Assembly: GCA_947632555.1 (NCBI GenBank)
Contig: CANRPU010000003.1
Span: 1-64,000, forward strand
DNA from: an uncultured Lachnospiraceae bacterium
Lineage (GTDB): Bacteria > Bacillota > Clostridia > Lachnospirales > Lachnospiraceae
Direction: 5' to 3'
DNA: 64,000 nt
Position 1 is the stretch's first letter. Each line of letters begins with the position of its first letter. The translations under genes and the position numbers were made by a program. Under the pieces are notes generated by a model. That model did no database searches, had not been told where the DNA came from, and was given only the letters and a program-made list of their open reading frames with translations. Below are positions 35,324 to 40,246 of the stretch, piece by piece.

Positions 35324-36151
35324 ATGGACGAGATCAGGATTGACAATCTGGAAATTTTTGCGCATCACGGGGTATTCCCCGAAGAAAAGGAGCGGGGGCA
35401 GTATTTTTATGTCAACTTGGTGCTGTATACGGATCTGCGCCTGGCGGGGAAACGGGACGATCTGAAGCTTTCCACCGATTACGGCGATGTAAGTCTTTTT
35501 CTGGAACAACAGCTGACCGGCCGTACCTTTGATCTGATCGAAGCGGCGGCGGAAGCGGCGGCGGAAGCAATCCTTCTGCGTTATCCTCTGGTACGGGAGC
35601 TGGAGCTGGAACTGCGCAAGCCAAGCGCGCCCATTCCCATGCGGTTTGATTCTGTTTCGGTGAAACTGCGCAGGGGCTGGCATCAGGCCTATATCGCTTT
35701 CGGCTCTAATCTGGGGGACCGGCGGGCCTATATCGACAATGCCATAAAAGCCTTAAAAGAAGATGAGCGGAACAGGGTGGAAAAGGTGAGCGCCATTCTG
35801 GAAACCAGGCCCTACGGCGGAGTGGAACAGGGCGATTTCCTGAACGGGGTGCTGAAGCTGGATACGCTTTATACGCCGGGAGAACTGCTGGATAAACTGC
35901 ATGAACTGGAGCAGGAGGCCGGAAGGGAGAGAACGATACGCTGGGGCCCCAGAACGCTGGATCTGGATATCCTTCTTTATGACAGGCTGGTGTACGAAGA
36001 CAAAGATCTGATACTGCCGCATCCGGATATGCAGAATCGGGATTTTGTCCTGCGTCCCATGGCGGAACTGGCGCCCTGGCTGCGGCATCCTCTGCTGGGA
36101 AAGACCATGAAGGAGCTTTTAGAGGAATGTCCGTCCCCACTCCCCGCATGA
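35324..36151 (+). CDS. folBK: Dihydroneopterin aldolase / HPPK fusion
   Basis: This 275-residue protein joins two consecutive folate enzymes. Residues 1-115 are FolB (IFAHHGVFPEEKERGQ, with TDYGDVSLFLEQ and the lysine-bearing KPSAPIPMRFDSV region). Residues 120-275 are FolK, 6-hydroxymethyl-dihydropterin pyrophosphokinase (YIAFGSNLGDRRAYI, ETRPYGGVEQGDFLN, RWGPRTLDLDILLY and HPDMQNRDFVLRPM). Such fusions are found across clostridia and streptococci. It closes the operon. No strong terminator is seen after it. Confidence 0.94.
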   Translation: MDEIRIDNLEIFAHHGVFPEEKERGQYFYVNLVLYTDLRLAGKRDDLKLSTDYGDVSLFLEQQLTGRTFDLIEAAAEAAAEAILLRYPLVRELELELRKPSAPIPMRFDSVSVKLRRGWHQAYIAFGSNLGDRRAYIDNAIKALKEDERNRVEKVSAILETRPYGGVEQGDFLNGVLKLDTLYTPGELLDKLHELEQEAGRERTIRWGPRTLDLDILLYDRLVYEDKDLILPHPDMQNRDFVLRPMAELAPWLRHPLLGKTMKELLEECPSPLPA

Positions 36152-36229
36152 CGATTTTACGAAAATAGAAAAGAAAAATGTTGAAAGATTCAGAAAAATC
36201 TTCTGTGCCCTAAATATAAAACTTTGCAT

Positions 36230-36273
36230 CTGTCAAATAACGCAACAACTCAAAAACTGTCGAAATAACGCAA
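36230..36273 (+). promoter_or_regulatory. Paired 0A-box-like direct repeats upstream of the Spo0A-type gene
   Basis: CTGTCAAATAACGCAA (36230-36245) and CTGTCGAAATAACGCAA (36257-36273) are near-identical repeats that start 27 bases apart. The second contains TGTCGAA (36258-36264), a perfect match to the 0A-box consensus; the first has TGTCAAA, one base off. They lie about 70-110 bases before the promoter of a gene whose product has a Spo0A-type DNA-binding domain. Confidence 0.6.
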
Positions 36274-36326
36274 AAAATATCACCTGTATTCTTTCAATTT
36301 TTTAATTTGACTGAATTTGTAGAATA

Positions 36327-36356
36327 TTTGCGACGTATATGGGTTGAAGTCGCAAA
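36327..36356 (+). promoter_or_regulatory. Perfect inverted repeat over the promoter of the Spo0A-type gene
   Basis: TTTGCGAC (36327-36334) and GTCGCAAA (36349-36356) are exact inverted copies separated by 14 bases. The right arm overlaps the -35 region and the start of the spacer, so bound protein would be expected to block RNA polymerase. Confidence 0.55.
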
Positions 36357-36373
36357 CTCTATCGCATTATAAT
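36344..36373 (+). promoter_or_regulatory. Promoter of the Spo0A-type gene
   Basis: TTGAAG (36344-36349) and a perfect TATAAT (36368-36373) are 18 bases apart; a GGAGG site and the ATG follow about 30 bases later. Confidence 0.65.
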
Positions 36374-36412
36374 AAGTGTGACAGAGTTTTGTAGATTGAT
36401 GGAGGTTTTTTG

Positions 36413-36934
36413 ATGGAACAGTTGAATATTCTTACCACAAAAGACAATGAAAGGCTGTATAAAATAATCGGACAACTGATGAGTTCCGACAAAGAATTTC
36501 AGATAATGATCACGGTGCCTTCCGAGAAAAAAGAAACTGTGAAGAAAAATACCGTCGAAGAGGCAGTAAAGAAAGTACAGGAAAGAGATCTGGAACAGGA
36601 TGTGACGGATATGATACATGAGATCGGCGTGCCTGCGCATATTAAGGGATACCAGTACCTGCGGGAGTCCATTATGATGGCGGTGGAGGACAACAGTATG
36701 CTGAGCTCCATTACCAAGGTCCTCTATCCCACCATTGCCAAGAAATTCCAGACAACGCCCAGCCGCGTGGAAAGGGCGATCCGCCACGCCATCGAAGTGG
36801 CCTGGAGCAGGGGAAGGATGGAAACGCTGGATGCGCTGTTCGGCTATACCATCAATACGGGCAAGGGGAAACCTACCAATTCCGAGTTTATAGCGCTGAT
36901 CGCGGACAGGATCCGATTGAAATACCGAAATTAA
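36413..36934 (+). CDS. Receiver-less Spo0A-type DNA-binding regulator
   Basis: The 173-residue protein lacks the phospho-receiver domain of Spo0A. Residues 1-60 are a charged region of unknown function, and from about 65 to the end it matches the Spo0A C-terminal domain closely: [34 protein letters not shown], the recognition helix region [20 protein letters not shown], and [16 protein letters not shown]. It should therefore bind 0A-box DNA without needing phosphorylation. GGAGG lies before the ATG at 36413. The upstream region has 0A-box-like repeats, suggesting self-control or control by Spo0A. The next gene is glycogen synthase, with its own promoter. Confidence 0.9.
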
Positions 36935-37002: not shown

Positions 37003-38448
37003 ATGAAGAAAGTTCTTTTTGTTGCATCCGAAGGGGTACCTTTTATCAAGACCGGGGGACTGGCGGACGTGGTTGGTTCTCTGCCAAAGTGTCTGGATAA
37101 GGCATATTACGACGTAAGAGTCATGCTGCCGCGCTATACCTGCATGAAACCGGAAATGCAGGAAAAGCTCAGCTATGTGACGCATTTTTATATGGATTTT
37201 AACTGGAAGGAAGAATACGTTGGGATTCTGGAAGCCGAGGTGGAAGGGATCAAGTATTACTTTGTTGACAACGAGCAGTATTTCAGCGGGTTTAAGCCTT
37301 ACGGCGATAACGTGCTCTTTGAGATCGAGAAGTACACCTTTTTTTCCAAGGCCGCGCTTTCGGCCCTGCCTCTTCTGGATTTTCAGCCGGATATCGTACA
37401 TTGCCATGACTGGCAGACGGGACTGGTGCCCGTATACTTAAAAGAACGTTTCAGGGGCAATCCTTTCTTCTGGAGCATGAAATCCATCATGACCATCCAC
37501 AACCTGAAGTTTCAGGGCAGATGGGATGTAAAGACCGTAAAGGAGATCACGGGCCTGCCGGATTATTATTTTACGCCGGATAAGCTGGAATGCTACAAGG
37601 ACGCCAACCTGCTGAAGGGAGGGCTGGTATTCGCGGATGCCATTACCACCGTCAGCAGCACCTACGCGGAAGAGATCAAGACGGACTTTTACGGCGAGGG
37701 ACTTAACGGCCTGCTGGTCGCAAGGTCCAATGACCTGCGCGGCATTGTCAACGGGATCGACTATGAGGAATTTAACCCAGCTACGGACAAACACATTCCT
37801 TTTCCCTATGACGCGGTAAATTTCCGCAAGGAAAAGGTAAAGAACAAACGCGCTCTGCAGAAAGAACTGAATCTGACGCAGGATGACAGAAAGATGATGA
37901 TAGGCGTGATCTCCCGACTTACCGACCAGAAGGGCTTTGACCTGATCGCCTATGTGATGGATGAACTCTGTCAGGACGATGTCCAGATCGTTATCCTGGG
38001 TACGGGCGAGGAGCGTTATGAAAATATGTTCCGGCATTTTGACTGGAAGTATGGGGATAAGGTATCCGCCAATATTTTCTATTCCGACGATCTCTCCCAT
38101 AAGATTTACGCGGCCTGCGACGCGTTTCTGATGCCTTCCCTGTTCGAGCCCTGCGGTTTGAGCCAGCTCATGGCGCTGCGCTACGGCAGTGTGCCCATTG
38201 TCCGGGAAACGGGAGGCCTTAAGGATACCGTGCAGCCGTACAATGAATATGAGAATACCGGAACCGGCTTCTCGTTTGCCAACTACAACGCGCATGAAAT
38301 GTTAAGGACCATCCGCTACGCGGAGCAGGTATATTACGACAGAAAAAGAGAATGGAACAAGATCGTGGACCGCGGTATGGCAGCCGATTTCTCCTGGCAT
38401 GTTTCCGCAGGCAAATATCAGGAGATGTATGACTGGCTGATAGGCTGA
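37003..38448 (+). CDS. glgA: Glycogen synthase
   Basis: GlgA extends alpha-1,4-glucan from ADP-glucose. The 481-residue GT5 enzyme has the N-terminal substrate motif IKTGGLADVVGSLPK at 15-29, PDIVHCHDWQTGLVP near 130, ISRLTDQKGFDLI near 302, and the C-terminal PSLFEPCGLSQLMALRYGS near 382 with its EPCGL motif. None of the other glg genes is present here, so it stands apart from a full glycogen operon. Its neighbour is an orphan Spo0A-type regulator, and many clostridia store glycogen-like granulose before sporulating. Confidence 0.95.
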   Translation: MKKVLFVASEGVPFIKTGGLADVVGSLPKCLDKAYYDVRVMLPRYTCMKPEMQEKLSYVTHFYMDFNWKEEYVGILEAEVEGIKYYFVDNEQYFSGFKPYGDNVLFEIEKYTFFSKAALSALPLLDFQPDIVHCHDWQTGLVPVYLKERFRGNPFFWSMKSIMTIHNLKFQGRWDVKTVKEITGLPDYYFTPDKLECYKDANLLKGGLVFADAITTVSSTYAEEIKTDFYGEGLNGLLVARSNDLRGIVNGIDYEEFNPATDKHIPFPYDAVNFRKEKVKNKRALQKELNLTQDDRKMMIGVISRLTDQKGFDLIAYVMDELCQDDVQIVILGTGEERYENMFRHFDWKYGDKVSANIFYSDDLSHKIYAACDAFLMPSLFEPCGLSQLMALRYGSVPIVRETGGLKDTVQPYNEYENTGTGFSFANYNAHEMLRTIRYAEQVYYDRKREWNKIVDRGMAADFSWHVSAGKYQEMYDWLIG

Positions 38449-38467: not shown

Positions 38468-40246
38468 ATGAGCAAGAGCGGTAAAAAAGACGGATTTATC
38501 ATACAGGCGGGGATACTGGCGGCGGCCGGTATCCTCTGCAGGATCATAGGACTCCTTTACAGGAGTCCTTTAACTGCTGTGATCGGGGACGAAGGTAACG
38601 GGTATTACCAGTCGGCCTTCAATATTTATACCATGGTTCTTTTGATCTCCTCCTACAGTATCCCCTCCGCGATCTCCAAGGTCATTGCACAGAAACTTTC
38701 CGTGCGGGATTATATTAATGCCCACAGGGTATTTCTCTGCGCCATCTGGTATGTGCTGGTAGTGGGCGGCCTGGCCAGTCTGGTGCTTTTTTTCGGCGCC
38801 GGGCTTTTTGATAAGGGACCGGCGGTGCAGGTCATCCGCATCTTCGCGCCCACCGTATTTCTTTACGGCCTGCTGGGGGTTTTGCGCGGATACTTTCAGG
38901 CGCACGGGACCATGGTGCAGACCTCCGTTTCCCAGATCCTGGAACAGCTGCTCAACGCCGTGGTCAGTGTGGGAGCGGCCTATCTTCTCATCCTGCTTCT
39001 GCTCTCCACCACGGACAGGTATACCCTGAATGAAGACCATTCTGTCAGCCTGGGAGATACGGTGGTGGCGCAGACGGCGGAAACGCGGACGGACGAGGAA
39101 GGGGAGCCGGTGTATGTCCTGAGCGCAAAGCAGCAGGAATGGAATACCCGGCATGCCGCTTACGGGGCCATGGGCAGCGCCCTGGGAACCGGTTCCGGCG
39201 TGGCGGCGGCGCTGCTGTTTATGTGGGGCGTATACCGCCTGAATCGGAATACCATAAGAAGCCGGATAGAGAGGGATACCCACCAGGAAGAAAGTTACCG
39301 GGATATTTTTAAGACCATCAGCGGTGTGATCGTTCCCTTTATCTTAAGTACTGCCGTCTACAACCTCAGCACCGTGGTAAATCAGAGTATCTATAAGTGG
39401 ATCTGTTATCTGCAGCGGGGAATGAGCGATGCGGAAACCTCTACCCGCTACGGTATTTTTTCCGGAAAAGCCGTGGTGATCTCCAATATCCCCATTGCCC
39501 TTTCTTCCGCCATGTCCTCCGCGGTCCTGCCGTCCATTGCCGCAAAGATCGGGCAGGGGGATCTGGAGGGCGCGAAGGAAAAGACGGCTCAGGCCGTAAA
39601 GACTACCATGTTCATCGCCATTCCGGCGGCAGTGGGGATCGGCGTGCTGTCCAGGCCTATTACCTGGCTCCTTTTCAGACAGAGATCTTCTGTGGATACG
39701 GCGGCGAAGCTGCTGACGGCTTTAGCCGCTTCCGTGGTGTTTTACTGCCTGTCCACACTGACCAATTCGGTGCTCCAGGGGATCGGCAGGGTCAAGGTGC
39801 CGGTGCATAACGCGGCGGCGGCCCTCTGCCTGCAGACAGTGGTGGTAGGGGCGCTTTTGACCTTTACCGGACTGGATCTATACGCGCTGGTGCTGGCCAT
39901 GCTGCTCTATTCCGGTTCCATGTGCGTGTTCAACCAGCTTTCCATCCGCAAATACCTGGGTTACAGACAGGAAATCTTCCGGACCTTCTGTATTCCGCTG
40001 ATCTCGTCCGGGTTTATGGGAGTGACGGCGTTTTTGACGCATTGGGCGCTGGCCGCTCTTCTGGGCGGAGAAGAGTATCCCTCCCTGCTCCATAACGCGC
40101 TGGCGCTTTTCCCGGCGGTGATAGCAGGCTGCCTGGTGTATTTTGTAATGGAAATCGCGCTGAAGGGCATTACGGAAGAAGAACTGGCCGCTCTGCCGAA
40201 GGGAAGGACACTGGTAAAGCTGGCCAAAAGGTGCCGGCTGTTGTAA
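38468..40246 (+). CDS. SpoVB-like polysaccharide/lipid flippase (first copy)
   Basis: The 592-residue protein is a MATE/MOP-superfamily flippase of the SpoVB/MurJ-related type, with about fourteen membrane segments. It begins GFIIQAGILAAAGILCRIIG and includes GNGYYQSAFNIYTMVLLIS and TVFLYGLLGVLRGYFQAHG. An inserted hydrophilic loop of about 60 residues (around residues 185-235) lies between membrane helices and is not usual for SpoVB. Such proteins move lipid-linked cell-wall or spore-cortex precursors. A second, shorter copy is at 58986-60335 on the other strand. It begins 20 bases after glgA. Confidence 0.87.
   Translation: MSKSGKKDGFIIQAGILAAAGILCRIIGLLYRSPLTAVIGDEGNGYYQSAFNIYTMVLLISSYSIPSAISKVIAQKLSVRDYINAHRVFLCAIWYVLVVGGLASLVLFFGAGLFDKGPAVQVIRIFAPTVFLYGLLGVLRGYFQAHGTMVQTSVSQILEQLLNAVVSVGAAYLLILLLLSTTDRYTLNEDHSVSLGDTVVAQTAETRTDEEGEPVYVLSAKQQEWNTRHAAYGAMGSALGTGSGVAAALLFMWGVYRLNRNTIRSRIERDTHQEESYRDIFKTISGVIVPFILSTAVYNLSTVVNQSIYKWICYLQRGMSDAETSTRYGIFSGKAVVISNIPIALSSAMSSAVLPSIAAKIGQGDLEGAKEKTAQAVKTTMFIAIPAAVGIGVLSRPITWLLFRQRSSVDTAAKLLTALAASVVFYCLSTLTNSVLQGIGRVKVPVHNAAAALCLQTVVVGALLTFTGLDLYALVLAMLLYSGSMCVFNQLSIRKYLGYRQEIFRTFCIPLISSGFMGVTAFLTHWALAALLGGEEYPSLLHNALALFPAVIAGCLVYFVMEIALKGITEEELAALPKGRTLVKLAKRCRLL

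Follow-up and report, generated by a model that had tools for sequence, protein, structure and literature searches.

The window, a stretch of 64,000 nucleotides from an uncultured Lachnospiraceae bacterium, carries a spo0A gene whose product combines an intact Spo0A DNA-binding domain with a much shortened N-terminus, set between a folB-folK fusion and glgA. The features of the locus are as follows.

35324 to 36151, plus strand: folB-folK fusion, upstream of the short spo0A.
36231 to 36273, plus strand: two direct repeats, one with a perfect TGTCGAA (36258-36264); not conserved in the clade of short spo0A genes.
36318 to 36324, plus strand: degenerate first box TGTAGAA, starting 11 bp ahead of the proximal element.
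36327 to 36356, no strand assigned: inverted repeat TTTGCGAC-N14-GTCGCAAA, overlapping the proximal element and the -35.
36329 to 36335, plus strand: promoter-proximal element TGCGACG, apparently from the second box of a tandem 0A operator.
36344 to 36373, plus strand: putative sigma-A promoter (TTGAAG at 36344-36349, an 18-bp spacer, TATAAT at 36368-36373).
36401 to 36405, plus strand: GGAGG, resembling a ribosome-binding site, ahead of the ATG at 36413.
36413 to 36934, plus strand: receiver-less spo0A, 173 aa, from the ATG at 36413 to a stop codon ending at 36934; matches NCBIfam spore_0_A.
36413 to 36520, plus strand: residues 1-36, likely remnant beta1-alpha1-beta2 of the lost receiver, with a near-invariant motif at its end (profile against shuffles, pN/pS).
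36521 to 36589, plus strand: residues 37-59, fast-evolving linker, with about 80 receiver residues missing at the join (alignment, pN/pS, pLDDT under 50 at residues 37-54).
36590 to 36931, plus strand: residues 60-173, complete Spo0A DNA-binding/trans-activation domain (PF08769, pN/pS, AlphaFold model, matches to 1fc3 and 1lq1).
36758 to 36808, plus strand: residues 116-132, recognition helix region, identical to that of the Spo0A domain in 1fc3.
37003 to 38448, plus strand: glgA, glycogen synthase, directly downstream of the short spo0A and its ancestral neighbour.

The identity of the C-terminal part is clear from several kinds of comparison. It matches the whole of the Spo0A_C model (PF08769; 157 bits, residues 64-167), and a profile of the clade finds the solved Spo0A DNA-binding domains 1fc3 (E 5e-59) and 1lq1 (E 2e-58). 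AlphaFold models the domain mostly with confidence (62-97 in 10-residue blocks from residue 61), and this model has the same two structures as its best matches, which places the protein in the Spo0A_C family and bears out the earlier note's statement that a 173-residue protein keeps the whole DNA-binding domain, recognition helix included. The full-protein model spore_0_A, NCBI's Spo0A equivalog model, is matched at 204.2 bits, barely above its cut-off of 200 and only over model positions 126-259 of 262. The recognition helix is identical and an operator-like element upstream is conserved; the short Spo0A may bind 0A boxes.

The gene also lies where a spo0A gene is expected. Upstream, the folB-folK fusion is accompanied by folP, and downstream, glgA adjoins spo0A at all 23 short loci L032-L054 and at 43 of the 57 loci L055-L111, nearly all of which carry full-length spo0A (the frame was called short in two, L081 and L109). 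The adjacency to glycogen synthase had been correctly noticed before; since it is ancestral and is also found at full-length loci, it does not point to any newly acquired connection with glycogen. The SpoIVB gene falls inside the fetched locus in 38 of 68 full-length spo0A loci and is on contig C8 in the window genome. Further downstream, a SpoVB/MurJ-like flippase gene (38468-40246) follows glgA and matches TIGR02900 at 158 bits, below the cut-off. Its glgA neighbour and its descent in both the GlgA and the DNA-binding-domain trees identify the window gene as the native spo0A of this genome, at the ancestral position beside glgA, and not as a stray copy.

The N-terminus had been described as a receiver replaced by 60 unrelated residues. 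Domain searches of the 173-residue protein indeed gave no match to a receiver domain, but the residues are not unrelated. A profile was made from the first 42 residues of 60 full-length Spo0A proteins (48 from named loci and 12 further ones; nine of 69 full-length proteins were without the DDN motif used for trimming and were left out of this profile and of the upstream sets) and applied to 40 short proteins (23 from named loci and 17 further ones, the window genome's included), which represent 37 distinct sequences. Their median score was 20.8 bits and their lowest 5.5 (L052), and 39 of the 40 scored above 9.2 bits, the best of 2,000 shuffles; in a control, a single one of 850 other ORF starts exceeded 8.0 bits (17.9, an ORF in L104). 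This result rules out that the N-terminus is new sequence. Full-length relatives start like MEKLNVAIADDNERMLxLLxxIIxxDxxLxVVG, and in the short proteins the first residue of the acidic pair is replaced (by K in 31 of 40) while the second is kept as D11 in all 40, as are F29, I31, I33 and V35. Residues 1-36 thus look like the first strand-helix-strand of the old receiver, the remainder of which, phospho-acceptor included, is missing. With respect to the residues that mark a Spo0A receiver (acceptor Asp, acidic pair, Thr/Ser and Lys), D11 of the acidic pair is what persists in the roughly 36 N-terminal residues left, and the short Spo0A is not a two-component response regulator in the sense of a protein with a phosphate-accepting receiver.

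In a codon comparison of the 40 genes, pN/pS is lowest in the DNA-binding domain (0.08), intermediate in the stub (0.20) and highest in the linker (0.75), values to be read as relative measures because synonymous sites are near saturation. The stub is under purifying selection and probably makes a protein contact, for example in dimerisation. The AlphaFold model of the N-terminus is poor (10-residue blocks at 55, 69, 67 and 56, then 36) and contains a single helix, and we therefore claim no fold for this segment.

The distribution of the short form was followed in a family sample of 200 Lachnospiraceae genomes at least 90% complete, in which each genus other than the window's is represented once. 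Spo0A_C was found in 136 of them; the main gene is short in 19, from 18 genera, which leaves 117 other genomes with Spo0A_C and 64 without it. The 18 short loci of this sample outside the window genome were read one by one: all 18 were without the receiver motifs searched for, 17 had glgA adjoining, and the stub could be recognised by eye in every case, with profile scores over the whole N-terminal frame above 9.2 bits in 15 and of 9.2 (at the limit), 6.9 and 4.2 in G088, G143 and G109, respectively. In a GlgA tree built from 25 short and 43 full-length loci (68 rows), from which most same-genus loci were left out, the short loci form one clade with an SH-aLRT of 100, sister to a full-length Spo0A group that includes Lacrimispora celerecrescens (joining branch 93), and a tree of the DNA-binding domain likewise recovers one short clade with a support of 99. 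Synteny, alignment and trees together support the view that the ancestor of the clade lost roughly 80 residues inside the receiver. The architecture is present clade-wide; a truncated copy without relatives of this architecture, which the earlier note had named as counting against its reading, is not what was found. All of this evidence is drawn from sequence, many of the genomes being MAGs, and since the members of the clade are not independent, the clade represents one event.

The region upstream of the gene gives a more nuanced picture than the near-identical repeats with a perfect 0A box that had been singled out there. Both repeats are present (TGTCAAATAACGCAA at 36231-36245 and TGTCGAAATAACGCAA at 36258-36273), as is the TGTCGAA, but their longest exact match is 11 nt, a length reached in 5 of 300 shuffles, and the arrangement is not conserved in the clade; it is a species-level feature, partly common to the closest relative, L032. 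The candidate of perfect TGTCGAA repeats as a conserved operator was dropped on the same grounds. Within 300 bp upstream, TGNCGAA occurs in 7 of 40 short genes, which is chance level (shuffles mean 6.9, max 12); of the 60 full-length spo0A genes, 43 have it (shuffles mean 8.4, max 15). What is conserved lies promoter-proximally, at 36318-36335, and not in the repeats.

The conserved pattern consists of [AG]CG[AG][CT][AG] and, at a fixed spacing downstream of it, a -35 and TATAAT. A version widened after inspection finds element and promoter in all 40 short genes (at most 2 in shuffles, mean 0.16), with the matches in L049, L050 and L054 unusually far upstream; earlier versions gave 34 of 40 and, when stricter, 33 of 40 short genes with 4 of 60 full-length ones. 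The widened pattern is also found in 14 of the 18 further short loci, in some of which the start is mis-set, in 7 of 60 full-length genes (shuffles max 3) and in 6 of 19 upstream regions of the paralogue described below. A simple loss of 0A autoregulation was considered at one stage and this view was revised, as five sister loci with full-length genes show TGTCGAA-N3-TGCGRYR at the very place of the element, a tandem phased by 10 bp of which the short clade keeps the proximal half with a degenerate distal half. Among 25 offsets, the two that fit TGTCGAA best in the short clade lie exactly one and two steps of 10 bp ahead of the element, where matches average only 2.7 and 3.3 of 7. The operator thus apparently reads as an old tandem 0A operator in which the proximal box has become fixed and the distal boxes have drifted.

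The remainder of the genome was searched for other Spo0A genes. In the window genome (2.57 Mb, 99% complete) the Spo0A_C search gave two genes, of 173 aa and, on contig C1, 125 aa, both without a receiver, and it found no full-length Spo0A elsewhere. The same holds broadly for its genus: among 37 genomes, the window's included, the main frame is short in 34 (open frames of 174-238 aa) and a second short match is found in 34, the three genomes without a short main frame being 63-81% complete, and G006, a single contig, has just the two short Spo0A genes. The sole long frame in the genus (273 aa) is in G018, a genome 80% complete in 530 contigs, and in our judgement it belongs to a stray contig, since the adjoining GlgA is set apart from every other one in the tree by a very long branch.

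A second Spo0A consisting of the DNA-binding domain only (frames of 125-193 aa) accompanies the short Spo0A in at least 18 of the 19 short genomes; among the matches listed for other genomes, only that of G197, a 108-aa fragment, is as short. The recognition helix of this clade paralogue, DQKVERAIRNAIE, differs from that of the short Spo0A, which makes it uncertain whether the two share sites. Its upstream regions (19 of 20 fetched loci) carry a TCGAC[AG] box 2 nt before the -10 in 9 of 19 cases (shuffles mean 0.002). In the window genome, the paralogue (L205, G000:C1:147342-153342) sits among glycosyltransferase and nucleotide-sugar genes. Outside the short genomes, G166 (L249, 195-aa frame) and G113 (L250, 181-aa frame) have receiver-less second copies beside a full-length Spo0A, that of G113 beginning with a receiver-like, strand-helix-like stub (IVIDDSEKLKELIKQLV), and receiver loss in paralogues has thus happened more than once.

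The sporulation genes looked for are largely retained together with the short form. At E 1e-40 or lower, SpoIIE is present in 18 of the 19 short genomes and in 113 of the 117 others with Spo0A_C, but in 3 of the 64 that lack Spo0A_C. SASP gave the same three counts, both markers occurring together in 17 of the 19 short genomes. The Fisher p for short versus Spo0A-less genomes is 3e-14, in a test that treats related genomes as independent. Within the genus, SpoIVB was found in 30 of 37 genomes, SpoIVA in 29 and, at E 1e-30, SpoIIE in 31, incomplete genomes included. The window genome has open frames for SpoIVA (499 aa), SpoIVB (462 aa), SpoIIAA, SpoIIAB, a SigF-like protein and a SASP of 66 aa; SpoIVA, SpoIVB and SpoIIAB score above their cut-offs, SpoIIAA and the SigF-like protein just under theirs, and SigG is a fragment cut by a contig end. 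Its SpoIIE is a 394-aa phosphatase part without the membrane part (G000:C7:60959-62032). An N-terminal membrane part is likewise absent from SpoIIE in many of the sampled Lachnospiraceae, the match starting at model position ~280-440 of 764; many genomes with full-length Spo0A are among these (match from model position ~280-320, frames of ~460-510 aa), so that we do not regard it as a peculiarity of the clade. No excess of 0A boxes was seen at spoIIA or spoIIE in short genomes or in full-length controls, with start calls that were rough.

Spo0E-like phosphatase acts on phosphorylated Spo0A. None of the 19 short genomes has a gene for it, against 29 of the 117 others with Spo0A_C (p 0.013, related genomes being counted as independent), and it is missing also from 88 of those 117. 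Two further observations concern individual genomes. In G088, the short spo0A (L248) and SpoIIE (G088:C78:8437-9333) each contain one in-frame TAG, whereas 473 codons of the adjoining glgA are free of nonsense codons; this points either to decay of sporulation in that genome or to errors in the calls. G093, G176 and G229 have SpoIIE and SASP despite giving no Spo0A_C match, G176 with a Spo0E-like gene as well, and they represent either assembly gaps or a further Spo0A-free case.

We think it fairly probable that the short Spo0A is a naturally occurring form that works without phosphorylation, under the control of its expression level and probably of a partner, and that it and its paralogue most likely still start sporulation or a programme derived from it. 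An ancestor that lost about 80 receiver residues would have been left with a strand-helix-strand stub, a loose linker and an intact DNA-binding domain. With the usual aspartate gone, the protein cannot accept phosphate at that position. By analogy with laboratory forms of Spo0A from Bacillus subtilis, its presence in the cell should be enough for binding to 0A-type sites. The phosphorylation-independent switch that the earlier note had proposed fits the absence of the usual phospho-acceptor, and it is upheld here at that level. Control would then be exerted through the amount of protein made, via the operator just upstream of the -35 that resembles the descendant of a tandem 0A operator, and the paralogue with its altered recognition helix would act as a second controlling protein. 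As the downstream sporulation genes have been kept, the pair would most likely still start sporulation, or a programme built from it. A bolder version of this reading has about an even chance in our view: a branch of gut Lachnospiraceae would sporulate, or run a derived programme, independently of Spo0A phosphorylation, two receiver-less Spo0A-type proteins cross-wired via rebuilt 0A operators having replaced the two-component input.

The most serious alternative, which we nevertheless consider unlikely, is that the clade no longer sporulates, the short Spo0A having been repurposed for stationary-phase or storage metabolism and the sporulation genes being leftovers or serving another cell process. 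The usual control was removed with the receiver, exact 0A boxes are at chance level at the short spo0A promoter, and G088 has its nonsense codons in spo0A and spoIIE. The SASP complement also points this way, with exactly one copy in each of the 18 short genomes that have SASP against two or more in 96 of 113 others. However, the retention of SpoIIE and SASP extends across 18 genera, at a level far above that of the Spo0A-less genomes, and SpoIVA and SpoIVB, for which we know of no use outside spores, are full-length in the window genome.

The conserved stub raises the improbable alternative of a split regulator, in which receiver function is supplied in trans by a protein docking on the remnant strand-helix-strand. 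Its low pN/pS, invariant strand-like motif and universal D11 are compatible with such docking, and the window genome encodes several stand-alone CheY-like receivers. A search with an alignment of Spo0A receivers argues against it: in five control genomes, true Spo0A receivers scored 143-180 bits and other receivers up to 88, whereas the best match in the window genome reached 79.8 bits, the level of an ordinary receiver. The candidate of a detached Spo0A receiver gene was accordingly rejected for this genome.

Competition with Spo0A at its sites, the other role suggested in the earlier note, is rejected for the window genome, which has no full-length Spo0A for the short one to block. A surviving version, in which the paralogue competes with the short Spo0A or is its target, would draw on the presence of two Spo0A-type DNA-binding proteins per genome and on the 0A-like box at nearly half of the paralogue promoters, but the paralogue's recognition helix is unlike that of the short Spo0A, and we hold even this version to be very improbable; the original idea might apply in G113 and G166, where full-length Spo0A and a receiver-less copy coexist. 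That the gene is a pseudogene, a truncated spo0A in the course of being lost, is strongly disfavoured: an internal deletion is a route of gene decay and G088 has a nonsense codon, but a single origin spread over 18 genera, the low pN/pS of domain and stub and a conserved promoter element speak against it.

Taken together, these observations favour a phosphorylation-independent Spo0A, and the clade may reach the decision to sporulate by a new route. In bacilli and clostridia alike, sporulation is described as being switched on by the phosphorylation of Spo0A (PMC3533761), and a clade with sporulation genes but without the receiver lets one test whether this input is dispensable and what replaces it. 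The short form also bears on surveys in which spore-formers are scored by tblastn matches to spo0A and other genes (PMC8340488), given that a match to spo0A is silent on the presence of the receiver. A survey of human-gut genomes reports Lachnospiraceae with a relatively complete sporulation set, some of which have lost spo0A (PMC11170972); in the part of that survey consulted, gene loss is spoken of and a shortened Spo0A is not mentioned. We found no description of a receiver-less spo0A in the literature searched, where subscription papers were thinly covered.

Compared with Spo0A proper, the short form has the orthologous spo0A-glgA locus, a complete DNA-binding domain, an identical recognition helix and an operator that looks derived from a 0A tandem; it differs in a receiver cut down to beta1-alpha1-beta2, with the signature residues gone except one acidic residue. 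The second copies in G113 and G166 similarly combine a Spo0A DNA-binding domain with the absence of a receiver, and in G113 with a strand-helix-like stub, but they are extras beside a full-length Spo0A and not the sole Spo0A. Atypical response regulators keep a receiver domain, whereas most of it is gone from the short Spo0A. Such regulators, among them those with aspartate-less receivers, are described as not being controlled by Asp phosphorylation (PMC4395418). Epulopiscium has likewise retained sporulation genes under altered control, reworked there for reproduction, but its Spo0A is reported to keep conserved residues of the phospho-acceptor domain (PMC3416734), unlike that of the clade.

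The closest parallels are the laboratory forms of B. subtilis Spo0A, namely Spo0A-Sad67 and the isolated C-terminal domain. In these, as in the clade's protein, receiver sequence has been removed, which should release the DNA-binding domain from control by phosphorylation; Sad67 lacks an internal segment of the receiver, and the isolated C-terminal domain is active in vitro. Sad67 has been termed constitutively active (PMC4689505, PMC6391423), and in B. subtilis it is described as turning on early genes while not giving efficient sporulation in rich medium by itself (PMC4689505). As a Sad67-like protein needs a further condition for efficient sporulation, a second input would be expected in the clade as well, for which the rebuilt promoter, the paralogue and the conserved stub are candidates. 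The clade's form differs from these laboratory proteins in being natural and fixed, with a larger deletion, a conserved stub and a second DNA-binding protein at its side.
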